Of a stretch of 64,000 bases of DNA, positions 37,273 through 64,000 are shown in pieces. The stretch covers positions 3,410,001 through 3,474,000 of the forward strand of contig NZ_LT629802.1 of NCBI RefSeq assembly GCF_900106045.1. Reading direction: 5' to 3'. A model generated the notes under the pieces. The model was not told where the DNA came from and made no database searches. It saw only the letters and a list, made by a program, of their open reading frames with translations. Position numbers and translations under genes: made by a program. Positions within the stretch are counted from its first letter, which is position 1. Each line of letters starts with the position of its first letter. The DNA comes from Pseudomonas mucidolens (GTDB taxonomy: Bacteria; Pseudomonadota; Gammaproteobacteria; Pseudomonadales; Pseudomonadaceae).

Positions 37273-37379
37273 TAATTATTTCCCATGATTTAATTATCAG
37301 AACGACCGATTGCAAGCGTAATACCAGTACTAAGGCCTCTGAGGTGACGAATCTTAGGTGCTTCATTTACCTCTTTGAA

Positions 37380-37393: not shown

Positions 37394-37559
37394 TTTTGAA
37401 TGACCCATCTATGCCTATGTATGCGCCCACCTGATCGATGCAGTTCACACTGAAGAACCCGGGTACAGAATCCCGCTCCGCTCCAGCCTGTACCCGCAGC
37501 GCTAGCGCTTCAGGAATTGTCTTATTATTTTTTGCATGCCCAAGCCTCAGGCTTGTCGC

Positions 37560-41539: not shown

Positions 41540-41563
41540 TTCAAAGCACACAATGTGTTCTAG

Positions 41564-42491: not shown

Positions 42492-42733
42492 CTAGGGCTG
42501 CAACCCCATCGACTCTTAAATATCGGGTCCAAGGGGCGCTTCTTCCCGCGTATGCGAGGGTTTCCTCCTCCCTGCCCTGTGTATTTTCCTTGTGTTCAAG
42601 TGCTGTTCCCTGTTCGTACGGTTGACTGGGCGGAGGCGCAGAGTGTACCCATTAGTATTGAGTTCGTTTCTCGGCACGCTGATAGAGAAAAAACGTCATC
42701 GCTCATCAGTCGTCATCAATCTGGAGTCTGATA

Positions 42734-43382: not shown

Positions 43383-43424
43383 GTGTATTTCCTTCAAGCT
43401 GTTTTTCAGGTCCGGAGCCTCCTC

Positions 43425-44069: not shown

Positions 44070-44079
44070 CAGGTTCGCC

Positions 44080-44775
44080 TACTGAGTAACATATACGTAA
44101 TCTCCATCAGCAGCGTTGAACTGTAACTGCCGATAGCGGGCAGCTCATCCCCAGTCTTGACCGGTCTGACGGATAACGCGAGCTTTAGCGACGTGTCCTC
44201 GAGAGGAAAGCTCAGCCCCCCACTTTGAGGGTACTGCTCGTGTCGCTCAGATGGGTTTTCAAGCGCGACTTGTCCAGCGTTGGACGCAAGGTACTGCTGT
44301 CAAAAGAACCATTGTTAGCACTAAAGCGCACATTGAGCTGATGACCTTTGATGCACTGAAAGGTCAGGACAACATCAGTCTGCTCAGAAATATCCTGACC
44401 TCAGCGAATTCAGGTTCACTTTGGAGATATCGATACTCTGTGAGGCTGGAAAACTGGCCGTGCACGGTGGTGTAATCTGAGCTCCAATGATCTCTAACTG
44501 AGTAGTGTCTTCGGCATACGCGCGTCATGGGTTTGAATGCCGATGCCGGACACCTGGTTGTCACCGGTCATGCCCAAGATGCTTGCATCAGTGTCAGCTT
44601 GTTGGCCGTTGAATTGATGGGAGCATTTTTCAGGGGCAAATCGCTGCAGTTCTCCAGAGAAATCGAGAACGGCGTGGAACCGGCGACAGCACCTACGGTG
44701 CTGGCAACGTCAGCGATACCAAGCAGAACCGGGCTCATATCAACCGACTTCTTTAGGCTATTTCGCAAAAACAGT
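44080..44775 (-). pseudogene. fossil of fimbrial minor/tip pilin genes
   Basis: Reading the minus strand in changing frames gives pilin-like segments in order: STPFSISLENCSDLPLKNAP; FNGQQADTDASILGMTGDNQ continuing to SGIGIQTHD; AQITPPCTASFPASQSIDIS then KVNLNSL; QTDVVLTFQCIKGHQLNVRF; and LPAIGSYSSTLLMEITY. These match the usual pilin Cys pairs, the GVGIQ-type core and a G-x-Y-x-x-T-x-x-x-x-x-Y end strand. At least three frameshifts separate them. The fossil ends 11 bp from the regulator stop at 44069 and suggests that an additional fimbrial operon once stood here. Confidence 0.7.
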
Positions 44776-44891
44776 TAATGCTGAGCAGGAAATATCTGAC
44801 TGCTTGGTTAAATCGGCTTTTTTAAACCTCAAACAGCCTGCCTGTTAAAGTAGCTGTTTATTTCAGACCCTCCCTGGGACGGTACCCAACC

Positions 44892-47800: not shown

Positions 47801-48140
47801 AACTTCGGCGTTGAAAACTGACGATCTTGAGGGATGGATCACGCTTTCGCCTGCCATGCATCGCCTGTTCATCACGACCATGCAAGAGGACCTGACTCGG
47901 GCCGAACAGGCTTTAAAGGCCTCCAACACATCGACACTGGTCAGCCACTTGCACCGCATGAATGGTTCACTGGCCACAGTGTGTGCAGTCAATCTGGCGG
48001 CGGCGTGTAATGAGTGCGAAATAGCCTTGCTGCATGCCCCCTTGAATACAGTCTCCATTCGCAGGATAAGCATGTTGTTAGAACGTCTGCATACAGCCAT
48101 ATCCAGAATGGCCGAGGGCGAGTTGCTTTCTCGACAGTAG
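44892..48140 (+). CDS. RcsC-type hybrid sensor kinase with REC and Hpt domains (module A)
   Basis: A 1082-residue protein. TM1 (LLLLLTGLALLLVSMSYWAV), a large periplasmic sensor, TM2 (LMAATGLLLLFMLIGWRLNR, near 340-355), a PAS-like part, HisKA with His495 (MSHEIRTPLYGV), HATPase (NNLLSNAIKF, DTGIGIS, GAGLGLS), an alpha/beta/loop-like segment, a receiver with Asp891 (ITDVNMP) and a C-terminal Hpt with His1021 (HRMNGS) follow in order. It can run a complete His-Asp-His relay to the RcsB-like protein. It may also serve the Hpt-less kinase at 37560. Confidence 0.92.
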   Translation: MKQAKVRLGVLALSSLRLNKLLLLLTGLALLLVSMSYWAVNRVLQEESEKTNFHFARLMESIHEHAVFLRSAAESFGKPNEILSLDSKPYSHVELMRQGDERLFQSRNRAKSLPFTVSQRDKFNLNEMQGTYSFGAQLTDLFTAYWSDAYYSAPQVFVFSPTDQFTIAVPGIDGNRQYPVLLKNNFFDVTKRLYDELLAQRHRLKNSQLFWMRGPLGLIQKRRYIVGAIGVDLSSGFVPAPDDGGSVILTALVDVSDINDLERLLMRPTNSRLTLISPTGDVLFGENRDVEVLPLGLSFTRDGLRFKLSSGGTDPWIGLYAISYQQFLGYAKRPLMAATGLLLLFMLIGWRLNRWYRVHIIEPAQRSSQSLAESEEFNRVMLDSAPVGLCVVQRSTETILLENQRAQQWQGTPELIALLKRDYPELVPGEVQLEVAGRHLQACFAFTRYQGEDVVLCGFNDITRRVDDSNMLEQARRSADEANKAKTMFLATMSHEIRTPLYGVLGNLELLELTSLDGRQHEYLQTIQRSSAVLFQLISDVLDVSKIESGQMAVEAKTFSPLDVFEDTVRSYSAAANNKGLKIFACADATLPPLLYGDAVRIRQVINNLLSNAIKFTDSGHITFRLRVTDIEHDHVSLQWQVSDTGIGISEQQLSHLFKPFSQVGNSERTGGAGLGLSICSRLSEMMGANLRVVSEPGLGSSFSLHIRLPTIAGSLANSTDIDLEGMNIFVRAPLKDVEQSLIEWLARWGARAQTLPVSDIENSNAILLDIDPVPVQAREWQGKHVIATESGSSHPLKTVRGWEVNAYDIRAIARALMQVARGTAPEVTDGAPGPVAGMALSALVAEDNPINREILKEQLCTLGVRVTLAEDGEQALLRWGDGSFDLVITDVNMPKLDGYQLTRRLREVDPDVPIIGVTANAMREEGEQCLEAGMTAWLVKPLSLKTLHQTLSDYCPQSQQVDSSTFKTETSALKTDDLEGWITLSPAMHRLFITTMQEDLTRAEQALKASNTSTLVSHLHRMNGSLATVCAVNLAAACNECEIALLHAPLNTVSIRRISMLLERLHTAISRMAEGELLSRQ

Positions 48141-49744: not shown

Positions 49745-50881
49745 TCACTGGTAAATAATCGTGAACGTCGCCGAGGCATTGGCCGGTCCGGGTGTCACGC
49801 TGCTCCCGGTCTGCAGGTAGCGGGCCTTCAGTGGAATGGTATAACTACCCTCGGTGGTTAACAGGTTGAGCCCACTACTTCGGTTCGTTGCCAGGGGCAA
49901 ACCGACTCCATTAGGCGTGGCAATCTGTAAACCGACGCCGGTGGCGGCAGGTGCACTACCCGCAGCGCTCGGGTCGAGGGTCATCACTCCAGTACCAGGA
50001 GTAATCGCTGTCCTGGCCGGGTCAATACGAAATTGCAAGCTGTTGTTGTTTCGGGATCCACTGGTACCGATGCCGCTAGGATTATTGCCGCTCTGCGAAG
50101 TCCAGCCTGGAGCGTTCGTGCTGTATGTACCGTGAAACGCCGGGCAGTTGTTCAAGGCAATGGAAAAATCCTTCCAGCCAGTGGCGCTGTTGCGCCCGGT
50201 AAATGTCTTGGTTTGGTGCGTTCCCATGGGCACAGACACATCCGGCGTACTGCAAGTGCGCGAGACAATTTGGAGGCTTCCCGAGATTCCCATTTTGAAC
50301 CCCAGCAGCCTGACCGTATTGCCCCCCCTGAAGTTGGCATGCAGGCTCGTCGACGGCAAATCACCACCCCTGAGCACGCCCGGAGTCACATCGCCAATTT
50401 TGATCAAGACCAACTCAAAGTTGGAAGGACCATTCATGGGTACAAGACATCTGTAGCCCGTGGTACATAATGTAGCCGGCCGCGCAGTGGTCTTCCTTGG
50501 CAACGGGCCGCCCGAACTGTCGAAGGCGACCCCTAGCCCCTGAATACTGGTTCTGTAAACTTTGTTGGCATACTTCCCACTGGACCAATTGGTCAAGCTA
50601 TAAGAGGAATCTACACTCATCTCGGTCCACATCTGAAGCGGCGCGTATAGGCACTCTGCCGTCGGTGCCTGGCCCGAAGCGATTTTGAATGTCTGGCGAT
50701 AAACCTCAGTGCCGACTGGCACATCGCGCCCGACGTTGATCGCTGATATCTGCAGCGGCATAGAACCATTTGGCGGATGAATGCCATCCAAGTAGGTACA
50801 GGTGAGCGCCATGGCACTGTCGGCCGAAGCCCACAGTGCAGCAGATAGCAACACTGAGCTGATCAAAGAGCCAAGTTTCAT
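49745..50881 (-). CDS. chaperone-usher fimbrial tip adhesin (module B)
   Basis: A 378-residue protein with a signal peptide (LISSVLLSAALWASADSAMA). The N-terminal lectin-like half has several cysteines. The C-terminal pilin domain has VSRTCSTPDVSVPMG, IALNNCPAFHGT, VGLQIATPNGV and the end strand ATFTIIYQ. It is longer than the module A adhesin (313), and the N-terminal halves are unlike, so the two fibres probably bind different ligands. It overlaps the usher stop by 4 bp. Confidence 0.88.
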   Translation of the reverse strand: MKLGSLISSVLLSAALWASADSAMALTCTYLDGIHPPNGSMPLQISAINVGRDVPVGTEVYRQTFKIASGQAPTAECLYAPLQMWTEMSVDSSYSLTNWSSGKYANKVYRTSIQGLGVAFDSSGGPLPRKTTARPATLCTTGYRCLVPMNGPSNFELVLIKIGDVTPGVLRGGDLPSTSLHANFRGGNTVRLLGFKMGISGSLQIVSRTCSTPDVSVPMGTHQTKTFTGRNSATGWKDFSIALNNCPAFHGTYSTNAPGWTSQSGNNPSGIGTSGSRNNNSLQFRIDPARTAITPGTGVMTLDPSAAGSAPAATGVGLQIATPNGVGLPLATNRSSGLNLLTTEGSYTIPLKARYLQTGSSVTPGPANASATFTIIYQ

Positions 50882-53475
50882 AACGGTACCTTTTGCATGT
50901 TGTTGGACCGCGCGTTGTCTGCGACCTGTTTACCGGCCGCGCAAACGGCGTCCACTTGCTGCAATTGCTGTCCCTCGCCAGGGCCAGGAGGAATCATCAG
51001 TGCGCACTGTTGATGGGTCTTGCTACCCCAGTTGATCAGCAACTGGCGGGTTTCGGGCTTGATCCGCGCATAGAGCAGGCCACCCTGCCCGACCATGCCC
51101 ACCGAGGCCCCGTCGCCATCCGTCACGCCTGCACCAAAAGGCAGACTGCTGCCATCGTCCAGGCGTACATTGAGCAGTACGGCACGGCCCTGGTTGGTAG
51201 TGTATTTGAGGTGTACGACGGCACCAGCACGCGGCGCCACCTGTTGGCTGGTTTCGTTGAGTTCGACGTCCAGCGAGCTGCCAATCGGGTCGATCGCCAC
51301 TTCGTTCAGTTCATAAGGGCGCAGGTACGGCACTACGGCATTGCCACTGCCATCGAGCTTGAGCCCCGGATAGCCGGCCACTTTGGCCCCCTCGGCACCG
51401 AGTGCGCTGACGATTGCCATGGTCTCACCACGATAAGGTGTCATTGTCACGCCATCGGCATGCGCAACCACCGTGCCGCTGGCCCCCAGTGACGTGCTGG
51501 TATAGCCATCGCCACGCCCCAACGCAGCACTGAGCATGGCGCGGGCACCAGTGTATTGGCCGTTCAGCGAGGCACTTTTGCTGTTGCTGGCACCGTCATG
51601 AGCGAAGGTGGCGCCGTAGCCATATTGACGGTCTTCACCAGCGGTACCGCTGATACCTGCCTGCTCATTGAAGTTGCCTTGAGTATCTCGGCCAACTTGA
51701 GCCGTTACTTGTGGGCCAAAGCCTGAAGCGCCGAACTCCAGGGGCATGCTCATGGTCAGCAAAAAACTATTTTCCATGTCGCCCAGGCCGATGCGGCTGC
51801 GGTTGGCATTCAAGCTGAAACTCACACGGTTGAACTGCTTGCTGTAACTGAATTGGTACTGCACATCGCTGCCTGGCAGGTTCCAGTAGTTCTGTGCATA
51901 ACCGCTGATCGCTACCTGGCCCCACGGCCCCAGGCTCTGGTCTGCCGTGACCGACAAACGACTGCGAGGGCGCCCAAACACGCTGGAGTCCCAGCCATTT
52001 TTCTCGGCACTCAGCAGTTGCACTGCGTTACTGAAGTCCAGGTAATCAGGGGTTGAAAACCGGTAGGCCGCTACTGAAAAGTTACTGCCGGTGCTGAGTA
52101 CATTTTTGTTGTAGGACAGGCGCATGCTCTGCCCTTTGGCAGAACCACTCGCCAGATCGGTCTGGGCGTGGGTCACGTCCACAGCCATGGCGCCAATGGG
52201 TGTGCCAAAAGCCACGCCGGCGAGTACCGACATGTAATCGTCACTCGATTGCACACCACCAAAGCCGGTGAAGGTGTTGTTCAGGCCATATTGCAGCGTA
52301 CCTTGCAGCAGGCGAGTCTGATCGTCGATAAAGTTGTTGCGGGTTTCACCTGCGGTCAGGCTGAAACGTGAGGTGCCGGGACGCAGCAGTTGGCTGACCG
52401 AAGCGTACGGCACGATGAAGCTCTGTTCGGTGCCGTCCGCTTCGGCAACGGTCACGTTTAAGTCGCCGCCATAGCCGGTGGAATACAAGTCGTCGATTAC
52501 AAAAGCGCCAGGGGCCACGGTGGTTTCCAACAGCACGTTGCCAGCCTGGCGAATGGTCACCCGCGCGTTGGTACGGGCAATGCCGCGAATCACCGGGGCG
52601 TAACCGCGCATCGAATCGGGCAGCATGCGGTCGTCGCTGGCCAATTGCACTCCGCGATAAGACAAGGTGTCAAAGATCTCGCCCGTAGTGTTGGACTCAC
52701 CCACTGTCAACTGGCTTTTCAGCGAGGTGATATCGCGTTGTGCGTAACTGTCCAGGGCCTGGTACTTATTGCCCTGGCGTGACTGCCAACTCATCGAGGC
52801 GTTGTGGCGAAGGCGCCAATCGCCCAGGTTGAGGCCTGCATTGAGCCCCAGGTAGGCCGAGTCATAGTTGCCGGCGCGGGTACGGTTGCGGTTGCCGCTG
52901 AAGTTGTAGCTGAGCATTCCAGCGGTCACACCGCGATCCCACAACTCCGGACTGACATAGCCCCGCGCATTACGCTTGAGCGCCGCTTGGGGAATACTGA
53001 GGTCGAGGGCCTGGTTCTCGGGTGAAAAACTCACAGTGGCGCCCGGGATCAAACTTCCCAATGCCGCGCAATCCTGGCTGTCTAGGGCCAGACCAGCCTC
53101 GGGTGACAAGCTGGACATTTTCACGCCCTGACGCTCCAGCAGCCCACGGCTCATGCAGACCACGGGGTTGCTACCATCGGGTTGAGCCTCGATGCGAATG
53201 TCCTGGCGACTGTTCAGTTGACCGTTGAGTATCACGTCCGCGCGATACTGCCCAGGCATCACCGGGTTGCCGCTCTGATACGCACCGAGGTCAAGATTAC
53301 GTGAATCTTCAGGCAGAAACGCATCGTTGAACTGCACCTCTTGCGCCAGCGCGCTCTGCACACTCCACACACCTGGAGCAATAGCCAGCACCTTGAGAAT
53401 CAAGGTCGTCAGCGGATTCAAGGCGAAGCGAGGCTGCGCCCCCAGAAACAATCTGGAGCGGGAAGAGGTCTGCAT
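50878..53475 (-). CDS. fimbrial outer-membrane usher (module B)
   Basis: An 865-residue FimD/PapC-type usher with an N-terminal domain starting VQFNDAFLPEDSRNLDLGAY, the signature DDRMLPDSMRGYAPVIRGIA, the plug segment GYGGDLNVTVAEADG, and a C-terminal region ending in the paired cysteines. It has a 30-residue tail beyond the usual end, which overlaps the adhesin start. It is a homologue of the module A usher but clearly diverged, so the duplication is not recent. Confidence 0.95.
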   Translation of the reverse strand: MQTSSRSRLFLGAQPRFALNPLTTLILKVLAIAPGVWSVQSALAQEVQFNDAFLPEDSRNLDLGAYQSGNPVMPGQYRADVILNGQLNSRQDIRIEAQPDGSNPVVCMSRGLLERQGVKMSSLSPEAGLALDSQDCAALGSLIPGATVSFSPENQALDLSIPQAALKRNARGYVSPELWDRGVTAGMLSYNFSGNRNRTRAGNYDSAYLGLNAGLNLGDWRLRHNASMSWQSRQGNKYQALDSYAQRDITSLKSQLTVGESNTTGEIFDTLSYRGVQLASDDRMLPDSMRGYAPVIRGIARTNARVTIRQAGNVLLETTVAPGAFVIDDLYSTGYGGDLNVTVAEADGTEQSFIVPYASVSQLLRPGTSRFSLTAGETRNNFIDDQTRLLQGTLQYGLNNTFTGFGGVQSSDDYMSVLAGVAFGTPIGAMAVDVTHAQTDLASGSAKGQSMRLSYNKNVLSTGSNFSVAAYRFSTPDYLDFSNAVQLLSAEKNGWDSSVFGRPRSRLSVTADQSLGPWGQVAISGYAQNYWNLPGSDVQYQFSYSKQFNRVSFSLNANRSRIGLGDMENSFLLTMSMPLEFGASGFGPQVTAQVGRDTQGNFNEQAGISGTAGEDRQYGYGATFAHDGASNSKSASLNGQYTGARAMLSAALGRGDGYTSTSLGASGTVVAHADGVTMTPYRGETMAIVSALGAEGAKVAGYPGLKLDGSGNAVVPYLRPYELNEVAIDPIGSSLDVELNETSQQVAPRAGAVVHLKYTTNQGRAVLLNVRLDDGSSLPFGAGVTDGDGASVGMVGQGGLLYARIKPETRQLLINWGSKTHQQCALMIPPGPGEGQQLQQVDAVCAAGKQVADNARSNNMQKVPL

Positions 53476-53507: not shown

Positions 53508-54254
53508 TCAGGGCTTGAGTGTTTTGCGGGCTGGGACCAGAGCGCCGTAATCATTGATGGCGTTGAACTCAACCTGGGCAGCGCCGACAGGCCGGGCTTT
53601 GAGCGCTGGTAGCAAAAACTGCCGGGTTTCACCCGGAGCGACCATGCCATCCTCGCTACGGGTACGCTGGGCACCCACCACCAGATCCAGCTCAATCAGC
53701 GAGACGTGGAACGCCGACGGGTTGAACGCCTGCAAAGCCAAGCCTTGCCCATTACGGGAAGGAACCAACTGCCACTGCATCTGCTCAATTGCTTCGGTGG
53801 CAGTGCCCGGCAACCCTACTGGGCGATAGAACAACTTGATTCGCGACCGAAAAGCCATCTGCAGGATGTTGAGGTCTCCAGCCACTTGAGGCTTGGGCGG
53901 AATTTCCAGCACGTTGAGCCAGAACACCGACTCCTTGTCTTGGGCTAATGGGGCGCCAGTGAACAGCACCCGAAGGGTTTGCCCTTTGGCGGGATCAATC
54001 CGTGCCACGGGTGGCGAGAGCAAGAATGGAGCCTTGGAACTGGTAGGTGTGGACTCCACGCTACCGGTATCGATCCACGACTGCGTCAACGCAGGTTGTG
54101 TACCGTTATTGTTGAGCTTTACGGTGATTTCCTTCTGATCCGCTGGGTAGATCAACCGGGTCCCCGTAATCACCACACCAGCAGACGCCTGAAAACATAC
54201 CAGCGCTGTAAAACCTGCCAGAAGCAGTTGCTTGAATGGAAGTGTGCGAAGCAT
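53508..54254 (-). CDS. periplasmic fimbrial chaperone (module B)
   Basis: Start MLRTLPFKQLLLAGFTALVC gives 248 residues with a signal peptide. An open extension to 54317 is not needed. Anchor Arg (TRLIYP) and Lys (SRIKLFYRP) and the donor strand FWLNVLEIPPKP are present. It lies between pilin and usher, as in module A. Confidence 0.93.
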   Translation of the reverse strand: MLRTLPFKQLLLAGFTALVCFQASAGVVITGTRLIYPADQKEITVKLNNNGTQPALTQSWIDTGSVESTPTSSKAPFLLSPPVARIDPAKGQTLRVLFTGAPLAQDKESVFWLNVLEIPPKPQVAGDLNILQMAFRSRIKLFYRPVGLPGTATEAIEQMQWQLVPSRNGQGLALQAFNPSAFHVSLIELDLVVGAQRTRSEDGMVAPGETRQFLLPALKARPVGAAQVEFNAINDYGALVPARKTLKP

Positions 54255-54269
54255 TACGTCATCCCATCG

Positions 54270-54307
54270 CCGCCTGAAAGCACGCCCTGTCCCAAATGGA
54301 GCAGAGC
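54270..54307 (-). promoter_or_regulatory. hairpin between pilin and chaperone genes (module B)
   Basis: On the minus strand CACGCTCTG pairs with CAGGGCGTG in the gap. No T run follows, so it is more likely to stabilise or process the pilin mRNA than to terminate. It is the counterpart of the true terminator in module A. Confidence 0.4.
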
Positions 54308-54327
54308 GTGTATCCATTAGTTGCGAC

Positions 54328-54870
54328 TTACTGATAATTAATGGAGTAAGTCACGTTGCTAATAACGGTACCTGGGCCAGTAGCGGCTTCAGCGAAGTAC
54401 TGAACAGCGTATGGCAGGTCTGCAGTCAAAGATGCTTCGTCAATATCAATGCGGCTAGTGGAAGCAACCTGCCCAGTGTCACCGGCTTTGATAGCTTCGC
54501 CGTTAGTAGCATCGACCAATTGCAATTGAACGTTGGTAGCGCTACCCGAGCTCCTCAGATTGCCGTTTTTCGGATCAACAGTACCACCGGCCTCAAAGAA
54601 CGCGGATGCTGTTTTGAGCGCAGCGGAGCAATCGCTCAACTGGATATTGAAACCGGTCTGGCCCGCAACCTGGCCAGCTGTAGCCAGCACCGAGGTAGAC
54701 AACGTTGGCAACGTAACGACCGTACCACTTGCGCCAGCACCGTTCACAGCAACCTTACAGGTTTCGGCTTTCAATTCGCCGTTAAAGTTGATTGTGCCGT
54801 CCGAAGCCATCGCGGCAGAGGTGGCGGTAGCAGCGACCAGTAGAGCAAGGACGCGGGCTTTGTAATTCAT
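54328..54870 (-). CDS. major fimbrial subunit (module B)
   Basis: Start MNYKARVLALLVAATATSAA gives 180 residues, with TTGGAG upstream. The frame from 54882 adds four residues without support. Pilin features are TINFNGELKAETCKVAV, the partner Cys in LSDCSAALKTA, and the end strand VTYSINYQ. It is the first gene of the operon. Three palindromic sites lie within 240 bp upstream. Confidence 0.93.
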   Translation of the reverse strand: MNYKARVLALLVAATATSAAMASDGTINFNGELKAETCKVAVNGAGASGTVVTLPTLSTSVLATAGQVAGQTGFNIQLSDCSAALKTASAFFEAGGTVDPKNGNLRSSGSATNVQLQLVDATNGEAIKAGDTGQVASTSRIDIDEASLTADLPYAVQYFAEAATGPGTVISNVTYSINYQ

Positions 54871-54921
54871 GAGTAACTCCAAGAAAGCAATGTTTTACAT
54901 TAAATTGTGGAGCTTCCTTAT

Positions 54922-54938
54922 GCGGAGCGCTCCTGCTT
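54922..54938 (-). promoter_or_regulatory. operator-like palindrome, copy 1 (module B)
   Basis: GGAGCGCTCC core in a 17-bp GCGGAGCGCTCCTGCTT, nearest of the three copies to the pilin start (about 50 bp). It lacks the trailing A run of the other two. Confidence 0.5.
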
Positions 54939-54980
54939 TGTTGCGGGGTGAAGTTTAAGAGGCCTACAACATATGTAATA

Positions 54981-54997
54981 TAGGAGTGCTCCTAAAA
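54981..54997 (-). promoter_or_regulatory. operator-like palindrome, copy 2 (module B)
   Basis: TAGGAGTGCTCCTAAAA. It shares every base but one with copy 3, which lies 114 bp further on. Confidence 0.6.
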
Positions 54998-55094
54998 ACC
55001 AAAAAACCACAACCAACCAAAGCTGAGCAACTCATGAATCTACCATTTCAATTTATTATTCTATTAACTAACAACTCCTCGAGCAAACCTGCAA

Positions 55095-55111
55095 TAGGAG
55101 CGCTCCTAAAA
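55095..55111 (-). promoter_or_regulatory. operator-like palindrome, copy 3 (module B)
   Basis: TAGGAGCGCTCCTAAAA, whose first 14 bases form a perfect palindrome. Its position, about 225-240 bp from the pilin start and before the end of the kinase operon, makes it a regulator-binding candidate. Confidence 0.6.
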
Positions 55112-55177
55112 ACTCAATTTAGCCAAAAGAAAGGTTTTTAAATTGCCGACAGCATAGTTGCTGGACGTGCAAGTAAA

Positions 55178-57565
55178 TCAGCTCGCCTGAGCACCACAGA
55201 GAAAGTCAGCCCACTGCTTGAGCAGAATGTTAAGGCGATCTGCGATAGCCTCAGCGGGCCAATTCACATCATCGCTCAACAACTGCTCGATCACTTCAAC
55301 CGGGATCGTGATATCCGCCCAACCGACAGCCAACGCCGCGCAGTGCAATCGATGCAGTGCATGCAATGCCTGGCTGCGATCACGCAAGGCGATTGCTTCA
55401 ATCAGGCTACTGAGGTTTTTGCGAAGCCCAGCATATTCCCCCTCCCCTTCCGGCTTCTGCTCAGCCTGCGGTTGCAGCTCGGGTACCTGGGATACGTCAC
55501 ACCAAAGTTCAATCATCTGCTGCAGTTTGACCTGACTGACGGGTCGGTTCAGCAAGCCATCTATTCCTGCATCAAAACAACGCTCGAGCTGTTCGTTGCT
55601 GGCGACTTGTGACATAGCAACAATCGGACAGTACCGCCGTTGCTGCTCGTACTCCAGTTCACGAAGGGCGCCGGCCAGACTGTAGCCATCGTCATCTGGC
55701 AAGTCACAGCTCATCAGCACCATATCAACCCTGTGCTCATCGAAGATCGCTAACCCCTGATTAGCATCAACCGCCAGCAGGGCCACGCAGCCAAGACTAC
55801 GCAGTTGGTCCAGCAACACGTGCTGATTAGCCGGCGAGCCTTCCACCACCAGCACCTGTAAACCTTTTCCCGCCACTTCAATATCCGCTGGTGCGGCTAC
55901 CGCTGCCCCAACCTGTGAAGGCGAGTCTGGGACCGAGGCCCACTTGATGGGTATCGTCACGTCTACCCGGGTGCCGACTCCCAACGTGCTCGTGAGCGCC
56001 AGCTCTCCATGCATCAACCTCACCAACCGCCGGCAGATCACCAGGCCCAGACCCGTACCGCCAGTGCGTTTGTAAGAGTGCTGGGCTCGGGCATAAGGCC
56101 GGAACAGCGAGAGCCGCGCCTGTTCGGACAAACCAATACCGCTGTCAATAACCCGAATCAGCACATACCTGACGCCACCCGAATGCCCCTCAAGCATCTG
56201 CAACTGCACTTCTACCTGACCGTTTTCGGTGAACTTGATAGCATTGGAAATCAGGTTGCGCAAAACCTGAGCCAAACGCAGCTCGTCCAGCATCATGGGA
56301 GTGGTGAATCTCTCACCGGTCAACGTCAGCTCTAGACCTTTTTCCTCGGCATTCGGCTGGTGATCATCCACCACTTGTTGAGCCAACGCCCAGAGATCCA
56401 CCGCCCCTGGATTGAGCTTGAACTGCCCAGCCTCCATCTTGGAGATGTCCAGCACATCATCCACCAAACGCAACAACGTATTGGCGCCATTATTGGCGAG
56501 ATCAGTAAAGTGTCGTTGTTGTTCGTCGAGAGGTGTGTGCTCCAACAACTCGACAGCAGCCAGCACCGCATTCATAGGCGAGCGAATTTCGTGGCTCATG
56601 ACCGCAAGGAACATCGCCTTCTCCCTCTCGCGATGCACAGCACGGCGACGCTGAACCCAACTTTGCCAAACCAGCATGACTAGCAACAGCACAACGGCCA
56701 GCAACAGCCACAACTCGCCATCGTAATGTTTGGCAATGGCCTTGATGGTCGGGATATCCACGTTCATGTCGGCAAGCCATGCGTCATAGATCGCCTTGCG
56801 CTCTTCTCCGGTGATGGAAGCCAATATTTTCTGCAGAATGGAGAACAGGATTACATCCTCCTCACGTACCGCCATGCTTACACCGGTATGCAACTGGGGC
56901 ACTACGCCGGAAATCTGCAATACCCCCTGATACTGGCGAGACAAGTACGGAATGAGTAACCATTCGGAAGCAATGGCCGCGTCGACACGGCCGTCCTTGA
57001 CCATCGCCATCATGTCGACCGCGTTCTGGGCTGCGATGATCGTGATACCCGGAACGGTCTTGCTCAGGAACGAGGAGTAACCTTCACGCCCCAGCATCAC
57101 CAGGCGCTTCCCGGCGAGATGTTCCAAGTCTGCGAAAGGTAGACCGTCAAAGCGGCTGACGAGAATGGTCGAACTGCTGCTGTAAGGCAGAGTGTAGAGC
57201 ATTCCACGGTCCTGAACTGGGTCGTCAGACTTTCGTCGAGTGGACAATATATCGACTTCACCGTTAATCAGCATGTCTTTGCGGTCGCTACGGGTGGTGG
57301 TAATCACAGGCTTGAAGTGCAGGCCTGTGCGCCGCGTTATCAGTTGCAAGTACTTGGCCGACAACCCCCGCAATTGATCACCGCCGATGTATTCGAAAGG
57401 CAACAAGTCGTCAAACACCCCGACATGCAGCACCGGATTGGTTCTGATCCAATCCAACTCCTCTTGTGTCAACTCCATCAGCGGTGGGCTGTCTTCTGCT
57501 CCAGCCCCACCCAGCTGGCCCAGCAGGACCAATGCCAGCAGCAAACGCTGCAATTTGCCGCTCAC
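55178..57565 (-). CDS. BvgS-like hybrid sensor kinase with degenerate receiver (module B)
   Basis: A 795-residue protein with signal peptide, one periplasmic solute-binding (SBP_bac_3) domain (VLHVGVFDDLLPFEYIGGDQ), a membrane helix (LWLLLAVVLLLVMLVWQSW), HisKA with His325 (MSHEIRSPMN), and HATPase with ISNAIKF, DSGIGLS and GTGLGL. The receiver is broken: VVEGSP replaces the acidic pair, Ser619 stands where Asp is expected (LMSCDLP), and NRP replaces KP. The Hpt-like end keeps His738 (HRLHCAAL). It probably cannot relay through its own receiver. It overlaps the next kinase by 4 bp. Confidence 0.9.
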   Translation of the reverse strand: MSGKLQRLLLALVLLGQLGGAGAEDSPPLMELTQEELDWIRTNPVLHVGVFDDLLPFEYIGGDQLRGLSAKYLQLITRRTGLHFKPVITTTRSDRKDMLINGEVDILSTRRKSDDPVQDRGMLYTLPYSSSSTILVSRFDGLPFADLEHLAGKRLVMLGREGYSSFLSKTVPGITIIAAQNAVDMMAMVKDGRVDAAIASEWLLIPYLSRQYQGVLQISGVVPQLHTGVSMAVREEDVILFSILQKILASITGEERKAIYDAWLADMNVDIPTIKAIAKHYDGELWLLLAVVLLLVMLVWQSWVQRRRAVHREREKAMFLAVMSHEIRSPMNAVLAAVELLEHTPLDEQQRHFTDLANNGANTLLRLVDDVLDISKMEAGQFKLNPGAVDLWALAQQVVDDHQPNAEEKGLELTLTGERFTTPMMLDELRLAQVLRNLISNAIKFTENGQVEVQLQMLEGHSGGVRYVLIRVIDSGIGLSEQARLSLFRPYARAQHSYKRTGGTGLGLVICRRLVRLMHGELALTSTLGVGTRVDVTIPIKWASVPDSPSQVGAAVAAPADIEVAGKGLQVLVVEGSPANQHVLLDQLRSLGCVALLAVDANQGLAIFDEHRVDMVLMSCDLPDDDGYSLAGALRELEYEQQRRYCPIVAMSQVASNEQLERCFDAGIDGLLNRPVSQVKLQQMIELWCDVSQVPELQPQAEQKPEGEGEYAGLRKNLSSLIEAIALRDRSQALHALHRLHCAALAVGWADITIPVEVIEQLLSDDVNWPAEAIADRLNILLKQWADFLCGAQAS

Positions 57566-59955
57566 AGCGGCTCCATCCGATGTGCCCGTACTACCGGCAG
57601 CACATAAAGCAGCGTATCACCGCTTAAGGCTTGCCAGTGCTGAACCAGTACTTGCAGGGATTGCCCGTAGACGGGATCGTCCCAACCCTCCCCCCCGCGC
57701 AGCAGTCGCTCCATATGCTCTGCCGCCAGGCCCAAAGCCGACCATTCCATGATCAATGCCGCGCCGTGCAACCGGTGGGCAACGTGCAGCGCAGAAGGAC
57801 GATCACACAGCGCCAAAGCCTTGATCAGGCTCCCAAGATCACTGGCCATTTCCCGGTTAATCGCAGCTTGATCCAGGGTTGGGGCCATCAAACTCGCACT
57901 GGGAGCTGCCAGTTTGACGCCGCACCAGCGCTCAATGACCTCACCCAACTGCCCAAGGCGTATGGGCTTGCTCAATACTGCATCCATCCCGGCGTCGAGG
58001 CAGCGCTGAAGGTGCTGATCGCCGGTTAAGGCGGAGATAGCAATGATCGGGCAGCGCGTGCGCCCCAACTGCAATTCAAATACCCGTAGCTCGCGGACCA
58101 GGCTGTAGCCATCTTGATCCGGCAGATCACAGTCCATGAGAATTAGATCGTAAGCACTCTCCCCAAACAAAGCACTGGCTTGGGCGGCATCGCCAGCCAC
58201 CGCAGGCCGACAGCCGAAGCCGCTGATCTGCGCCCGCAATACCTCTTGGTTGGCCAAGGTATCTTCCACGATCAGAATCTGCAGGCTGCTGTCGGCCATC
58301 TGTGCTGGTGCAGCCTCTGTCTCAGGTAGTGCCAGAGGCTCAGGTGCCGTGGTCGCAGGCAAACTGATAGTCACTGTAGTGCCTACTCCCTGCTCACTAC
58401 TGAACATCAACACGCCATCCATCAAACTGACCAGTTGCTGGCAGATCACCAGACCGAGGCCGGTCCCCCCCGCTTGATTATTGGTGTAGCTGGCCTGGGC
58501 ATAGGGCCGAAATAAAGTCGCGCTTACGGCTTCGGCAACACCGATCCCGGTATCCCGGACCTCAATCTGCAACTGCTGGACGTCAACCTGCGAAGCAGAC
58601 AGGCGTACGTTGATGTCCACACCGCCGGTATCGGTGAACTTGATGGCGTTGGAAAGCAGGTTGTGAAAAATCTGCGTCAACCGTGAACTATCGAGTAATA
58701 ACAGGGGCAACTGCGCTTGGATATTCGGGGTCAAGCTCAGGCGCTTTTCCCGTGCACGCAAACGGTGCAAACCTACCACTCCTTCCACCAGCGCGGTAAC
58801 GTCAGTCGGCTCGATGGTGAGTCGTAACGGCCGAGCGTCCGGATCGGACAGGTGCAGCCCATCATCAAGCAAGCGCACCAACGCATTGACACCGCTGTTG
58901 GCCAAATGAGCAAAGTGGCGTTGCTGCTCATTGAGTCGGGTGTGCCACAGCAACTCCATCGCCGCGAGCACGGCATTCATCGGCGAGCGTATTTCATGGC
59001 TCATGACCGCCAGGAACATGGTTTTTTCTTGTTCACTACGCACCGCGCGATGTCGCTGGCGATGACCGAGATAGGCGAGTGCACACAACCCGGCCAAGGC
59101 CAGGGCTGAAAGGATCAGGGCATGTAAGTAATGGCCGGAGATGCTGGACAGGGATGGAGCATCCACATCCAGATCGTGATACCACTGCTCATAGATGACC
59201 TTGCGCTCTTCGGCAGTAATCGACTTCAGAACTTTCTCAAGAATGGATATCAGTATTGTCTGGTCTGCACGGACCGCTATACCTACATCCAGCATCTGAC
59301 TCCCGACCACACCCGAGGCTTCCAGAACCCCCTGAAACCGTCGGTACAGATACGGCATCAGGAAGGTTTCCGTGGCCACCACCGCGTCAGCCCTGCCATC
59401 CTGGACCATGGTGAGCATGTCCACGGCCGAAGTATTTCTGAGGAGATTGGCTTGGATTTCACGCGTACTGAACATCTTCGCGTAGCGCTCTACATCAGGG
59501 ATCACTACGGTTTTACCCTGCAGCTGTTCGAGGTCGAAAATGTCGGGATTGTCGATCCTAGTCACGATAATGGGCGAAGTTGTATGGTAGATCAGCTTTT
59601 TAATGTCGGGATTAACGGGCTCAGACCTCAAACGCATGTGGGAGGACAGCATGTCTACCTGACCGTCCAGCAGCATTTGCTCGCGCACATCAATCCTTTT
59701 TCCCACCACGTACATGAACTGAAGTCCCGTGGCAGCCGTCAAAAATTGCAGATAGTGCATTGACCGCCCATGCAACATTCCGCCTTTCATATACTCGAAG
59801 GGAATCAGGTCTTCAACCACCCCTACCCGTAACACCGGATGCAACGCAATCCACTGTCGCTCTTCAGGGCTCAGTTCAACCGAGGTGGCCTGGACGAGGG
59901 GAGCACCACCCACCAGCGACAACAGCAACAGGATCCAGTGCAGGCATTGCTTCAT
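57562..59955 (-). CDS. BvgS-like hybrid sensor kinase with intact relay (module B)
   Basis: A 797-residue protein with signal peptide, periplasmic SBP_bac_3 domain (VLRVGVVEDLIPFEYMKGGM), membrane helix near 285, HisKA with His320, HATPase (NLLSNAIKFTD, DTGIGVA, GTGLGLV), receiver with VEDT, Asp608 (LMDCDLP) and SKP, and an Hpt-like end with His727 (HRLHGAAL). It has every step that the sister kinase at 55178 lacks. Gene order in the operon is regulator, this kinase, sister kinase, all joined by 4-bp overlaps. Confidence 0.92.
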   Translation of the reverse strand: MKQCLHWILLLLSLVGGAPLVQATSVELSPEERQWIALHPVLRVGVVEDLIPFEYMKGGMLHGRSMHYLQFLTAATGLQFMYVVGKRIDVREQMLLDGQVDMLSSHMRLRSEPVNPDIKKLIYHTTSPIIVTRIDNPDIFDLEQLQGKTVVIPDVERYAKMFSTREIQANLLRNTSAVDMLTMVQDGRADAVVATETFLMPYLYRRFQGVLEASGVVGSQMLDVGIAVRADQTILISILEKVLKSITAEERKVIYEQWYHDLDVDAPSLSSISGHYLHALILSALALAGLCALAYLGHRQRHRAVRSEQEKTMFLAVMSHEIRSPMNAVLAAMELLWHTRLNEQQRHFAHLANSGVNALVRLLDDGLHLSDPDARPLRLTIEPTDVTALVEGVVGLHRLRAREKRLSLTPNIQAQLPLLLLDSSRLTQIFHNLLSNAIKFTDTGGVDINVRLSASQVDVQQLQIEVRDTGIGVAEAVSATLFRPYAQASYTNNQAGGTGLGLVICQQLVSLMDGVLMFSSEQGVGTTVTISLPATTAPEPLALPETEAAPAQMADSSLQILIVEDTLANQEVLRAQISGFGCRPAVAGDAAQASALFGESAYDLILMDCDLPDQDGYSLVRELRVFELQLGRTRCPIIAISALTGDQHLQRCLDAGMDAVLSKPIRLGQLGEVIERWCGVKLAAPSASLMAPTLDQAAINREMASDLGSLIKALALCDRPSALHVAHRLHGAALIMEWSALGLAAEHMERLLRGGEGWDDPVYGQSLQVLVQHWQALSGDTLLYVLPVVRAHRMEPL

Positions 59956-60617
59956 GGTGGGCTAATGATCTTATTGAGCTTGAACAGCTCATTGTTCGAC
60001 GTGACCCCAAGCTTACGGAACGCCGAGGTTTTCTGAGTGCTGATGGTCTTGATGCTGCGATTGAATTTATCTGCAATTTCACTCACGGTCATGCCCGCCA
60101 GATAACAGCGAATGACTTCCTGTTCACGACTGGTCAACTCCGCCTGGAGCAACGCGTCCGGAGTCTCGCCAGAGTCCTTACGAGTATCACTGGTGACCGT
60201 TTCTGCCAGGCGATAGGTCATAGAGGTACTCAGGTACACCGCGCCCGATGCCACTTTACGTATCGCCTGGACCAAGTGGCTCATGTCCTCACCCTTGCCG
60301 ACAAACCCCCGCGCACCGACACGCATAGCCAGCCCGACCGTCGCGGGATCATGGTGCGCAGACAATACGAGGATATGGCAGTTGGGAAACTTGACCCGCA
60401 AGGCACGGATCAGTGATACACCGTCCAACTCATCTGGACTCAGGGAGAAATCCAGAAGCAGCAAATCCGCCGGGGCCGAGGGTAACCCGCTGATAAGGTC
60501 GCGGCTTCGCTCATAAATGCCAACCACTTCAAAGCCCGCCTCGGCTGCCAGGGTGTTGGCAAGTCCGTGCCGAACAACAGCATGGTCATCCAATAAAGCA
60601 ATGCGTATAGGTTTCAC
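59952..60617 (-). CDS. BvgA/RcsB-like response regulator (module B, kinase operon)
   Basis: A 221-residue NarL/FixJ-family regulator. Asp10-Asp11 (ALLDDHAVVRHG), Asp56 (LLLLDFSLS) and the Lys in GFVGKGE complete the receiver, and the HTH is LTSREQEVIRCYLAGMTVSE with FNRSIKTISTQKTSAFRKLG. It is first in the operon with the two BvgS-like kinases, so it is their cognate output. Confidence 0.93.
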   Translation of the reverse strand: MKPIRIALLDDHAVVRHGLANTLAAEAGFEVVGIYERSRDLISGLPSAPADLLLLDFSLSPDELDGVSLIRALRVKFPNCHILVLSAHHDPATVGLAMRVGARGFVGKGEDMSHLVQAIRKVASGAVYLSTSMTYRLAETVTSDTRKDSGETPDALLQAELTSREQEVIRCYLAGMTVSEIADKFNRSIKTISTQKTSAFRKLGVTSNNELFKLNKIISPP

Positions 60618-60774
60618 AGTGATTTAACCCACTCTGCCCAGCGAACACGACGCTGCCTAACTAAAGGGATCAGCCATCAATCCCGGCATGCAGATGAGTA
60701 TATGCAAGAACTGATGAGTTACACGCCGTACTCTCACTATTTTTACGACCCTCGACAGATTAGGGCACCCAGAC

Positions 60775-61440
60775 TCAAACGCCTTCAATAATGTGTTTAA
60801 GCCGAAATAACTCATTGTTCGATATCACCCCTAACTTGCGAAAAGCCGAGGACTTCTGGGTACTGATCGTCTTGATGCTTCGACTGAATTTCTCAGCAAT
60901 GTCGGTGATGGTCATACCTGCCAGAAAACATCGAATCACCTCCTGCTCCCGGGCAGACAGGCTGACAAAGCGCAACGCATGATCTCGACTCTTTTCTTCA
61001 CCGCCATCATTCACTGCAGTAGCCTCCGCCACCCTGTAAGCCATGTCTGGACTCAGGTACACCGCCCCCGAGGCAACCAATCGAACAGCGTCGATCAACT
61101 GGCACATGCCTTCACCCTTGCCGAGAAACCCCCTGGCACCGATACGCAGTGCCAATATCACTGTCGCTGCGTCATGGTGAGTGGAAAACACTAGGATGCG
61201 GCATTTAGGAAACTTTACCCGCAAGGCCCGAATCAGTGACACACCGTCCAACTCGTATGGCCCAAGAGCAAAATCCAGTAGCAACACCTCCGCGGGATTA
61301 GTCGCAAGCCCTGCCATCAGCTCTCGACTGCTGGCGTAGACGCCGACCACTTCAAAATCAGGCTCCAGTACCAATCGACTAACCAAACCATGTCGCACGA
61401 TTGCATGATCATCCAACAAAGCAATTTGTAAACGTTTCAT
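60775..61440 (-). CDS. BvgA/RcsB-like response regulator (module B, second copy)
   Basis: A 221-residue protein very similar to the regulator at 59952 (Asp10-Asp11, Asp56, Lys in GFLGKGE; HTH LSAREQEVIRCFLAGMTITD with FSRSIKTISTQKSSAFRKLG). The two are recent tandem duplicates, separated by 157 bp. It has its own upstream region of 430 bp that contains an operator-like motif (61767) and a half site (61840). The pair may form homo- or heterodimers on the fimbrial promoter. Confidence 0.92.
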   Translation of the reverse strand: MKRLQIALLDDHAIVRHGLVSRLVLEPDFEVVGVYASSRELMAGLATNPAEVLLLDFALGPYELDGVSLIRALRVKFPKCRILVFSTHHDAATVILALRIGARGFLGKGEGMCQLIDAVRLVASGAVYLSPDMAYRVAEATAVNDGGEEKSRDHALRFVSLSAREQEVIRCFLAGMTITDIAEKFSRSIKTISTQKSSAFRKLGVISNNELFRLKHIIEGV

Positions 61441-61870
61441 AAATCACAAGGCACTCTGCATAACGAGCAATAGATGAACAATACAGTCATTTCATCATTA
61501 GCAAGTTGTCGTCACTTAAGACAAAACAACAATATCAATTACATCCGTGCAGCTGAAAAATCGCGCATTACAAAGAGTAAGCATAACAACTACCAAGCAC
61601 ACAAAGTAACTTTTCAGCCAACCACGCAAATGCTCAGACCATGAGACTTATAGACTCTAATGGCATCCGGCGCGCTATAACGGACGGACAGGAGAATTGA
61701 ATCAACGGCAAATAAACCAATAAAACCCACGACTAGGAATTTAATTTAATAGCGTGCTGATGAACATCGGAAAACTCCTAAAAGTTTAGCCACTACACTG
61801 TGAAAAACCGAGCAAACGCGCGGATAGGCCACACAAAAATAGGAGCGAGCGAACCAAGAGAGGGGTCGCC
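61441..61870. other. 430-bp AT-rich regulatory region
   Basis: No gene is seen between the EAL stop and the regulator start. It holds the operator-like motif at 61767-61783 and a half site TAGGAGCG at 61840-61847. Confidence 0.5.
61767..61783 (+). promoter_or_regulatory. operator-like motif upstream of the second regulator
   Basis: TCGGAAAACTCCTAAAA, with the same 17-bp spacing as TAGGAGYGCTCCTAAAA at the fimbrial promoter and an identical right half CTCCTAAAA. It is about 330 bp from the gene start. Confidence 0.45.
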
Positions 61871-63205
61871 TTATAAACTCTTTTCCCGCGAGATCAAAAA
61901 ACTTAAGAACGCATCAATTTCCATCGGGCGCGCCAAGGCATAGCCCTGCCCTACACGGCACCCTAGACGGTGCAGCAACGGGATCGTAGATTCGTCCTCA
62001 ATTCCCTCGGCCACCAGACTTAGATTGAGCAATTCAGCCCAGTTGACGATGCCGGTAATGACCTTGCGTGACGACGAATACCGCTCAACATCACGGACGA
62101 ACGAACCGTCGATTTTCATCTCATCGAACGATAGGTTCGCCAGCAGATTCATAGTGGCCGCCCCGGTACCGAAATCATCCAAGGACACCTGAAAACCCTT
62201 GGCACGAATGGCCGTCAACGAAGCGGAAAGGTAGAGCTCGTCCGGCTCAGGCACATCTTCAGTAAGTTCGATTTTCAGCAACCGGGTCGGCAAGCCGGCC
62301 TCATGCATGCCTGCCGCTAGCCGATCGGCGAAGTGCGGCGTGCAAATAGTCTTTGCCGACGCATTCACCGCTATGGGAATCTGGATGTTTTCACGTTTCA
62401 GCGCCGTCATAGCCCTCATGCTCCACATTTTCACTAGGCTGAACAACAACAGATCAAGGCCCAACCGGTTAACCAGAGGTACCAGCACTGAAGGAGGGAT
62501 TTCGCCAAAGCGTGGATGCTTCCAGCGCACCAATGCCTCAGCCCCCACGACGCGCCGAGTCAACAATTCGAATTGCGGCTGGAACACAAAACGCAGCCCT
62601 TCCCCCGTGGTCAGCGCGTTGATCACTTCATCCTCAGCCAGAGAGTCGAACGTAGCCATTTGCAACTTGGGCCCCGGTTGAGCACGAGTCAACATCACAG
62701 CTCGCAAGGCATCGTCCAGCTCCAAACCGCCGCCCTCACGCAGAATCGCCACCTGAACCCCTGCCGCCCGAGCCAACCGTGCGTGAGACTCCAGCGCACT
62801 GACGGCCACCCCGCCTACGTGCTTGATCCAGAGTTGATTGGTTAGCCGCTCGTTGAGGAGTGATCGCGTCTCATCAACGACGCAAACCTGGGCATTCAAG
62901 GTCGTTTCCCCCGTCCAAAAAATGCTGGGAAGCTGCGTCAGGGTGCCGACCTCGCGCAGCTCCTTGAGCAGGCTTGGCAACATCAGTCCGTCGCTGCATT
63001 TGGGCCTGATTTCGCAGACAATCACATCGACCGGATTTTCACATAGCCAGGCCGTCACTGCACTCAAGGATTTGACATTGGTCAGTGGTGTAATACCCAA
63101 GCAACTCAGCGCGCCGGCGAGTCGATGTGCACACATAGTGTCAGTTGCCAACGTGATAACGCGTAGCGCATCAAACTCGTGAGGCACAGCGACATTTAAA
63201 ATCAT
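61871..63205 (-). CDS. EAL-domain c-di-GMP phosphodiesterase with degenerate receiver (module B)
   Basis: A 444-residue protein. The N-terminal 120 residues have a receiver-like fold, but the acidic pocket is eroded (VITLATDT) and the phospho-acceptor position reads Glu (VIVCEIRPKCSDG). The EAL domain keeps AEALVRW, AVNASA, KIELTED, the DD pair in LDDFGTG, MKIDGSF, AEGIED and GQGYA, so phosphodiesterase activity is likely. It may act without phosphorylation. Domain order matches the module A EAL protein. An IS3 element begins 84 bp upstream of its start and may affect its promoter. Confidence 0.9.
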   Translation of the reverse strand: MILNVAVPHEFDALRVITLATDTMCAHRLAGALSCLGITPLTNVKSLSAVTAWLCENPVDVIVCEIRPKCSDGLMLPSLLKELREVGTLTQLPSIFWTGETTLNAQVCVVDETRSLLNERLTNQLWIKHVGGVAVSALESHARLARAAGVQVAILREGGGLELDDALRAVMLTRAQPGPKLQMATFDSLAEDEVINALTTGEGLRFVFQPQFELLTRRVVGAEALVRWKHPRFGEIPPSVLVPLVNRLGLDLLLFSLVKMWSMRAMTALKRENIQIPIAVNASAKTICTPHFADRLAAGMHEAGLPTRLLKIELTEDVPEPDELYLSASLTAIRAKGFQVSLDDFGTGAATMNLLANLSFDEMKIDGSFVRDVERYSSSRKVITGIVNWAELLNLSLVAEGIEDESTIPLLHRLGCRVGQGYALARPMEIDAFLSFLISREKSL

Positions 63206-63265
63206 GATAGAAATTTCCCAATACTATTTCAGAAAAAATCTTATCAGCATCAAAAAATAAAAAAA

Positions 63266-63282
63266 TAGGAATGGGACTAAAA
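63266..63282 (+). promoter_or_regulatory. operator-like motif upstream of the module B EAL gene
   Basis: TAGGAATGGGACTAAAA, aligned with TAGGAGTGCTCCTAAAA at four or fewer mismatches and equal length. It ends 6 bp from the IS3 left end. Confidence 0.4.
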
Positions 63283-63350
63283 GCAAGTTGAATCGCCCCG
63301 GGTTTCGTAGACACCTCTTTGCCTTAAACTGAGGCCAATTAGGAGGTGCC

Positions 63351-63629
63351 ATGAGCAACCCGTGTTACCCCGAAGAATTCAAAATCCAAGCGGTCAATCA
63401 AGTGACCGAGAAGAAGCTGCCTGTCGCTGATGTAGCTGCTTGTCTCAGCGTGTCGACGCATAGCCTCTATGCTTGGATAAAGCGCTACAGCAAACCTCAA
63501 GAAGAACGGCAGCAGGATGATGATCAGCACGCTGAGCTGCGTCGTCTGCGAGCGGAACTCAAGCGGGTGACTGAAGAGAGAGGCATATTAAAAAAGGCCG
63601 CCGCGTACTTTGCCAAGGAGTGCGGCTGA
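63351..63629 (+). CDS. IS3-family transposase OrfA
   Basis: A 92-residue protein with an HTH (YPEEFKIQAVNQVTEKKLPV, then DVAACLSVSTHSLYAWIKRY) and a leucine-zipper-like end (LRRLRAELKRVTEERGILKK). An A AAA AAG slippery site (63590-63596) lies in frame for -1 shifting into orfB. Confidence 0.9.
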   Translation: MSNPCYPEEFKIQAVNQVTEKKLPVADVAACLSVSTHSLYAWIKRYSKPQEERQQDDDQHAELRRLRAELKRVTEERGILKKAAAYFAKECG

Positions 63630-64000
63630 AGTACGCCTTTATCAAGCAGCGCGCGGGCGAGTATTCGATTCGACGGCTTTGCCTGACGCTTAAAGTCCAT
63701 CCCAGCGGTTATTACGCTTGGTTGCCTGAGCCGCAATCTGCACGCGCCAAAGACGACCAGCGACTGCTGGGTTTGATCAAGCATTCATAGCTGGAAAGTG
63801 GCGGCGTTTATGGCTATCGCAAAATCCATGACGATCTGCGCGAGGTCGGTGAAGACTGTGGTCGCCATCGTGTGGCGAGACTGATGCGTCTTGAAGGGCT
63901 GCGTTCTCAGATAGGGTATCGACGTCGCCCTGGAAAGTACGGTGGTAAGCCATCGGTCGCCCCACCCAATTTGCTAAAGCGCCAGTTCGATGTCGTCGAA
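63620..64000 (+). pseudogene. IS3-family transposase OrfB with a premature stop (partial)
   Basis: The frame from GTG at 63620 gives VRLKYAFIKQRAGEYSIRRL. It is interrupted by TAG at 63788-63790, where IS3 homologues have a Trp codon (TGG), then continues SGGVYGYRKIHDDLREVGED to the window edge. The stop comes before the catalytic DDE region, so this copy should be unable to transpose itself. Confidence 0.85.

Follow-up and report, generated by a model that had tools for sequence, protein, structure and literature searches.

The promoters of a chaperone-usher fimbrial locus of Pseudomonas mucidolens, here termed module B, carry a recurrent 14-bp inverted repeat (the box), which is very probably the operator of the module's own RcsB/RocA-type regulators (RR2 and/or RR1), through which these would activate the fimbrial genes, RR2, and an EAL phosphodiesterase, an enzyme of a type that degrades a biofilm signal. 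The locus lies in a 64,000-nucleotide stretch of DNA, referred to as the window, that covers positions 3410001–3474000 of the 5.85-Mb genome (G000:C1); all site and gene coordinates are window-based, and seven-digit positions are those of the genome. A preliminary description had placed a repeated 17-bp motif at five module B sites and read it as the target of a dimeric NarL/FixJ-family regulator governing a small regulon made up of the fimbrial, regulator, and phosphodiesterase genes. Four of the five sites (54981, 55095, 61767, and 63266) are kept in all 10 orthologous loci, but the variant at 54922 is not. The proposed regulon agrees with the sequence data, a box being found before the pilin, RR2, and EAL genes in each of the 11 loci compared, with fixed spacing to a −10-like hexamer, and a dimer-sized inverted repeat beside two RcsB-like NarL/FixJ regulators is consistent with the form of regulator suggested.

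The box and its conservation

TAGGAGYGCTCCTA is found at 54981 and 55095, and re-reading of the window confirmed both the letters and the coordinates previously given. In the transcribed direction the box, previously described as 17 bp with the same end, reads TTTTAGGAGYRCTCCTAT. A search of the window for TAGGAGYGCTCCTAAAA with up to three mismatches returned four matches (two places, both strands) against 0.15 expected, a number reached by none of 100 shuffled windows. The weaker sites, TCGGAAAACTCCTA at 61767–61780 and TAGGAATGGGACTA at 63266–63279, are not convincing from a single genome and were accepted because 10/10 orthologous loci contain the same element, its spacing to a −10-like hexamer being constant. 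The boxes are built from TAGGA-type half-sites, of which the EAL box has one half only. The promoter of RR1, the first regulator (59952), has no box (best candidates 10–12 of 19 positions, 0/11 loci). The 54922 site, with three mismatches in the ten fixed bases and not kept in the 10 relatives, was rejected as a third pilin box. No terminator or hairpin was found at 54840–55200, the palindrome there having no loop, and an Rfam search of 54000–64000 gave no match.

Conservation was assessed in an even sample of 398 Pseudomonas genomes from a larger group; 74 of the 398 contained matches to RR2 at E ≤ 1e-30. Forty loci were retrieved, and the orthologous set comprised 10 loci (L051–L060) in which RR2 is 80–87% identical; with the window, these make up the 11 loci referred to throughout. 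The gene order EAL-RR2-RR1-HK2-HK1-pilin-chaperone-usher, where HK1 and HK2 are sensor kinases, is kept in 10/10 orthologous loci. In all 11 loci the distal pilin box is TAGGAnnnnTCCTA, with its ten fixed bases (TAGGA, TCCTA) unchanged, the proximal pilin box is TnnGAnnnnTCCTA, the RR2 box is TAnGAGnnnTCnnA, and the EAL box is the identical TAGTCCCAnTCCTA. The distance from box to ATG is variable for RR2 (138–329 bp) and nearly constant for the EAL gene (60–65 bp). The promoter DNA flanking the boxes is widely divergent between relatives. The highest numbers of invariant columns per 18-mer coincide with the boxes in the alignments of the pilin promoter (14 and 13) and the EAL promoter (17), and the RR2 box has the second highest of its alignment (12), behind a 14-column stretch near the ATG. 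The RR2 mRNA is predicted to have a leader of ∼300 nt (61441–61737), and the conserved TGCTCGTTATGCAGAGTG near the ATG (14 of 18 columns invariant, 11 loci) has no Rfam match.

Promoter geometry and specificity of the full element

A −10-like hexamer, TAnnnT, is located exactly 23 bp downstream of the box in all proximal pilin and all RR2 promoters (11/11 each), and the distance is 22 bp in the EAL promoters (11/11), such that the spacing is 22–23 bp in all 33 promoters; at the distal pilin box a hexamer at either distance was found in 0/11 loci. This geometry fits an activator site upstream of or abutting −35, and if the −10 element is assumed to take its normal position the box would lie at about −36 to −49.

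The full element was represented by the strict pattern TTTTMRKMnnnnTCYKAT-N18-24-TAARYT, written from the module's own sites, and the finding is therefore its rarity elsewhere. In the 11 module genomes the pattern gave 23 hits, all inside the module and from 10 of the 11 genomes, and in the 398 genomes a total of 27, the other four being spread over the remaining 387 (G125, G383, G235, and G271); the reversed control gave four hits across all 398. The hit in G271 precedes an open reading frame (ORF) that has no Pfam match, and the next gene encodes a receiver domain. In the whole P. mucidolens genome, bare TAGGAnnnnTCCTA occurs at seven places (reversed control, one), four of which are the window's two pilin boxes and two ahead of a second fimbrial operon. 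The others (2252399, 2486299, and 4062363) were treated as chance occurrences because the TTTT...AT flanks and the −10 spacing are missing in their contexts. This reading is only tentative for 2252399, which lies upstream of an unclassified ORF; a place with one mismatch, 3899326, falls inside an ORF that by reading alone resembles a receptor. The motif had been expected to stand out from random frequency when counted genome-wide and in relatives; this is true of the full element, which is nearly absent elsewhere, although counts of bare TAGGAnnnnTCCTA do not separate genomes with and without the module (1–7 places in the 11 module genomes versus 0–8 in 28 others). Specificity thus comes only from the combination of box, flanks, and spacing.

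RR1 and RR2 as candidate regulators of the box

Both RR1 and RR2 contain Pfam Response_reg and GerE domains, and Asp56 is invariant in 17/17 aligned sequences. The best PDB match of RR1, used as the query, is RcsB (E = 6.3e-27). Lys190 is invariant and position 194 is Ser or Thr in all 17 sequences; these are the equivalents of Lys180 and Ser184, the residues of Escherichia coli RcsB that make direct base contacts, and the half-site in the RcsB structure, TTAGGAA, contains the TAGGA of the boxes described here (PMC5829831). Among the 7 of 51 first-look candidates from this genome that were scored, only RR1 and RR2 matched RR2 at E ≤ 1e-30.

Very probably, a phosphorylated dimer would occupy the 14-bp inverted repeat and lie against −35 (a class II position), with the downstream edge of the repeat ∼36 bp ahead of the start site. 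From there it would activate the fimbrial operon through two boxes, the operon beginning with RR2, amounting to positive autoregulation, and the EAL phosphodiesterase through an always-asymmetric and probably weaker box; the same regulator would also reach the second fimbrial operon at a distance of 17.7 kb. A single activator would then make both attachment and its brake.

Several observations weigh against this model. In all 11 loci one half of the EAL box (TAGTC) breaks the palindrome, and this box, having two mismatches, is weak evidence when taken alone. The strict TAARYT hexamer misses true sites, including the EAL promoter of the window (TAAGAT) and all three promoters of G089, and bare TAGGAnnnnTCCTA is equally frequent in several module-free genomes. 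A consensus scan found no σ70 promoter at the pilin site and no good −35 element, although the lack of a good −35 may be expected of an activated promoter. Finally, the recognition helix does not distinguish RR1 from RR2, and module A, in the same window, likewise encodes RcsB-like regulators, which could cross-bind.

This last point leads to the strongest of the alternatives, although it appears improbable: that the boxes bind another NarL/FixJ-family regulator, such as those of module A, with RR1 and RR2 acting elsewhere. Module A (32286–48140) does encode two receiver-GerE regulators, one of them split, and in its pilin promoter a box-like CAGGAATCTTCTTA lies 23 bp before TAAGAT. However, that site differs from the module B box in its centre and in one half, the module B box is kept together with RR1 and RR2 in 10/10 orthologous loci, and boxes are also present with a 61–71% identical regulator in loci encoding other adhesins. 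There is even less reason to favor a repressor operator or roadblock, at which the dimer would repress instead of activating. RcsB is described as repressing where its box falls in the −10/−35 region or over the start site, but the three proximal boxes end 22–23 bp before the −10-like hexamer, a position upstream of or abutting −35 that is usual for sites of activation by the RcsB homodimer (PMC5651002). That the likeness is merely inherited from duplicated promoter DNA without function is hardly credible since, although the second fimbrial promoter and the pilin promoter are clear paralogs over ∼150 bp, promoters have diverged widely between species and yet the boxes rank first (pilin, EAL) or second (RR2) among invariant 18-mers. 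Activation by RR2 and/or RR1 thus remains the preferred explanation. It departs from the preliminary description in three supported respects, all drawn from sequence comparison: the third pilin site is dropped, the second fimbrial operon is added as a putative target, and RR1 lacks a box.

The EAL protein

Most of the 18 EAL protein sequences retain the EAL, ELTE, DDFG, and EGIED motifs, and because of this the enzyme is probably active. Its N-terminal part gives a weak match to Response_reg (E = 0.046), and an AlphaFold2 model of this region, built from 14 sequences, has alternating strands and helices with a mean predicted local distance difference test score of 75 and a predicted template modeling score of 0.63. 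In the model, residue 65 is located at the end of the third strand, which is the place of the acceptor Asp in receivers. This residue is Glu in 14, Gln in three, Asn in one, and Asp in none of the 18 sequences; the L061 copy has an internal stop. The phosphorylatable receiver carried by antagonist EAL regulators such as RocR and PvrR is therefore not found here and, with the acceptor Asp gone in 18/18 sequences, the relay may reach the EAL protein only through transcription. The amount of EAL protein, as set by the box, is probably the main control that the relay has over it.

A second fimbrial operon

The two TAGGAnnnnTCCTA places outside the window, at 3482695 and 3482819, lie ahead of a second fimbrial operon, whose usher and chaperone match those of the window at 37 and 35%, respectively. 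The proximal of the two boxes is 23 bp ahead of TAAGCT. No relatives of RR1, RR2, or the kinases were found in the 20 kb read around this operon, and for this reason it is probably dependent on the regulators of the window. Its pilin (L014:9958–10518) and minor subunits were named from reading the ORFs. A perfect (TTGCAC)14.7 array at L014:10572–10659 (G000:C1:3482571–3482658), 8.6 kb past the window end, is found in the presumed leader of the operon, just after the −10-like hexamer; such a leader, being prone to slippage, could serve to tune expression or make it phase-variable. ORFs that by reading are IS3-type or otherwise transposase-like are located between module B and the second operon (63351–63629 and L014:1873–3426).

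The box beyond the orthologous loci

In Pseudomonas koreensis (L123) and the mutually close loci L061–L063, a 65–66% identical regulator sits beside an EAL gene, which in P. koreensis is preceded by TTTTAGTCCCAGTCCTAT. No usher was found in the retrieved stretches of these four loci, and boxes are found ahead of large adhesin-like ORFs. According to Pfam, one P. koreensis ORF has the stalk, anchor, and head of YadA, another has a sub-threshold YadA head, and the L062 ORF has an alanine zipper; the L061 and L063 ORFs are alike by N-terminal sequence only. The P. koreensis boxes (L123:3099 and L123:8422) are 185 and 145 nt from the first start codon. In Variovorax sp. (L125), boxes occur ahead of the EAL gene and of a divergent ORF, and a Janthinobacterium plasmid (L206) has seven box-like sites, six of them with a −10 hexamer at exactly 23 bp, these six being followed by two EAL genes, a lipase gene, and genes for three hypothetical proteins without Pfam match.

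The exact 23-bp spacing was found for 14 of 21 box-like sites in loci with a 61–71% identical regulator (eight distinct loci, L064 included and L124 being the same region as L065), for 8 of 22 sites in 25 Pseudomonas loci with a 44–52% identical regulator, and for one of three sites in five betaproteobacterial loci. In 68 control loci with more distant RcsB-family relatives (1,052,598 bases) it was found for 0 of 25 sites, with two at 22 bp and two at 24 bp. Variant boxes (mostly TnAGAnnnnTCyTA) with the same spacing ahead of a named gene account for nine sites in 39 loci, too few to support a rule in those families.

We consider it an evenly balanced question whether these data reflect a portable, adhesin-independent promoter code, in which an RcsB-family regulator of Pseudomonas and Betaproteobacteria would read the box, 23 bp, and a −10 element. 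Adhesin operons acquiring this code, whether chaperone-usher, the duplicated second operon, or YadA-like autotransporters, would become part of a self-limiting switch whose activator directly drives the production of a phosphodiesterase freed of receiver control and governed by transcription alone.

Comparison with known systems

The RcsAB box of E. coli has an AT-rich centre, unlike the GC-centred palindrome AGGAGYRCTCCT seen here. Similarity to the E. coli system lies in the TAGGA half-site and in the base-contacting Lys and Ser/Thr (PMC5829831), and in a site upstream of or against −35 as for the RcsB homodimer (PMC5651002).

The kind of system is already known, with the logic of RcsB, PvrR, and cupD in Pseudomonas aeruginosa. 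The cupD/rcsCB-pvrSR locus on PAPI-1 of strain PA14 likewise combines chaperone-usher fimbriae, two sensor kinases, an RcsB-type regulator, and an EAL protein (PMC3842833; PMC2696094). There, RcsB induces cupD, pvrR, pvrS, rcsC, and rcsB and activates cupD via an RcsAB-like box before cupD1, which is experimentally essential, a GAA to TTC change in it abolishing activity (PMC3842833). In contrast to PA14, two DNA-binding regulators are encoded in tandem in module B, and the box is kept at the RR2 and EAL promoters with fixed spacing and an asymmetric EAL box. The PvrR receiver is described as not degenerate (PMC3842833; PMC2696094), whereas the receiver-like domain of the EAL protein here is without the acceptor Asp.

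Module B also resembles the P. aeruginosa Roc system (RocS1/S2, RocA1/A2/A3, and RocR; cupB and cupC) in its SBP_bac_3 kinase domains, several regulators, and antagonist EAL phosphodiesterase; RocA1, RocA2, and RocA3 are reported to have highly similar motifs by DNA affinity purification sequencing, with the roc1 locus, cupB, and cupC among their common in vitro targets (PMC12051241). Unlike in Roc, all parts are in one locus and the EAL gene itself has a box. The comparison with Roc covered its parts and logic. The box strings were not found in print by exact full-text search, which did not reach supplements or most subscription journals; the sole match was in one paper that is, by title, a tree population study.

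Genes of module B and neighboring features

The chaperone-usher operon adjoins SBP_bac_3 sensor kinases and a RocA/RcsB-type regulator (Pfam; synteny in 10/10 loci). The receiver Asp and Hpt His of HK2 are intact in 15/15 sequences. The receiver and Hpt of HK1 are degenerate in several of 11 sequences, the L054 copy having an internal stop; its receiver Asp is altered in some relatives as in the window, and its Hpt His is not conserved. All features are listed in Table 1.

Table 1. Boxes, −10-like hexamers, and genes of module B
Feature	Position	Strand	Remark
Distal pilin box TAGGAGCGCTCCTA, perfect palindrome	55095..55108	-	∼224 bp upstream of pilin ATG
Proximal pilin box TAGGAGCACTCCTA (as transcribed)	54981..54994	-	∼110 bp upstream of pilin ATG
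Pilin-promoter −10-like hexamer TAAACT	54952..54957	-	23 bp after proximal box
Third pilin site of the preliminary description, GCGGAGCGCTCCTG	54922..54935	-	Not supported, not conserved
RR2 promoter box TAGGAGTTTTCCGA (as transcribed)	61767..61780	-	326 bp upstream of RR2 ATG
−10-like hexamer TAAATT	61738..61743	-	23 bp after 61767 box
EAL promoter box, asymmetric, TAGTCCCATTCCTA (as transcribed)	63266..63279	-	60 bp upstream of EAL ATG
−10-like hexamer TAAGAT	63238..63243	-	22 bp after 63266 box
Tip adhesin-like fimbrial protein	49745..50881	-	Family search
Outer-membrane usher	50878..53475	-	Family search
Fimbrial chaperone (PapD_N, PapD_C)	53508..54317	-	Pfam
Major pilin (FimA), first gene of chaperone-usher operon	54328..54870	-	Pfam
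Sensor kinase HK1 (SBP_bac_3, HisKA, HATPase, receiver)	55178..57565	-	Ser in place of the receiver Asp
Unorthodox sensor kinase HK2 (SBP_bac_3, HisKA, HATPase, receiver, Hpt)	57562..59955	-	
NarL/FixJ response regulator RR1, RcsB-like	59952..60617	-	Without upstream box
NarL/FixJ response regulator RR2, RcsB-like	60775..61440	-	Box upstream
EAL phosphodiesterase, receiver-like N-terminal domain	61871..63205	-	Acceptor position Glu65

Module A is a second cup module with a REC-EAL protein, hybrid and unorthodox kinases, and RcsB-like regulators, the first of which is split into two ORF pieces at about 42760–43382. Its box-like pilin site (complement of 37380–37393) is 107 bp from the ATG.

Implications

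New in module B are the fixed promoter code, the always-asymmetric EAL box, the receiver-like domain of the EAL protein without an acceptor Asp, and the change of adhesin type in the wider relatives. What was a guess from one genome has become a precise cis-regulatory code with base-level predictions as to bases, spacing, and promoters. The findings suggest that the promoters of a sister module directly encode the RcsB/PvrR logic known from a PA14 microarray, and we propose that a phosphodiesterase can leave the control of the phosphorelay and be governed instead by the transcription factor of that relay.

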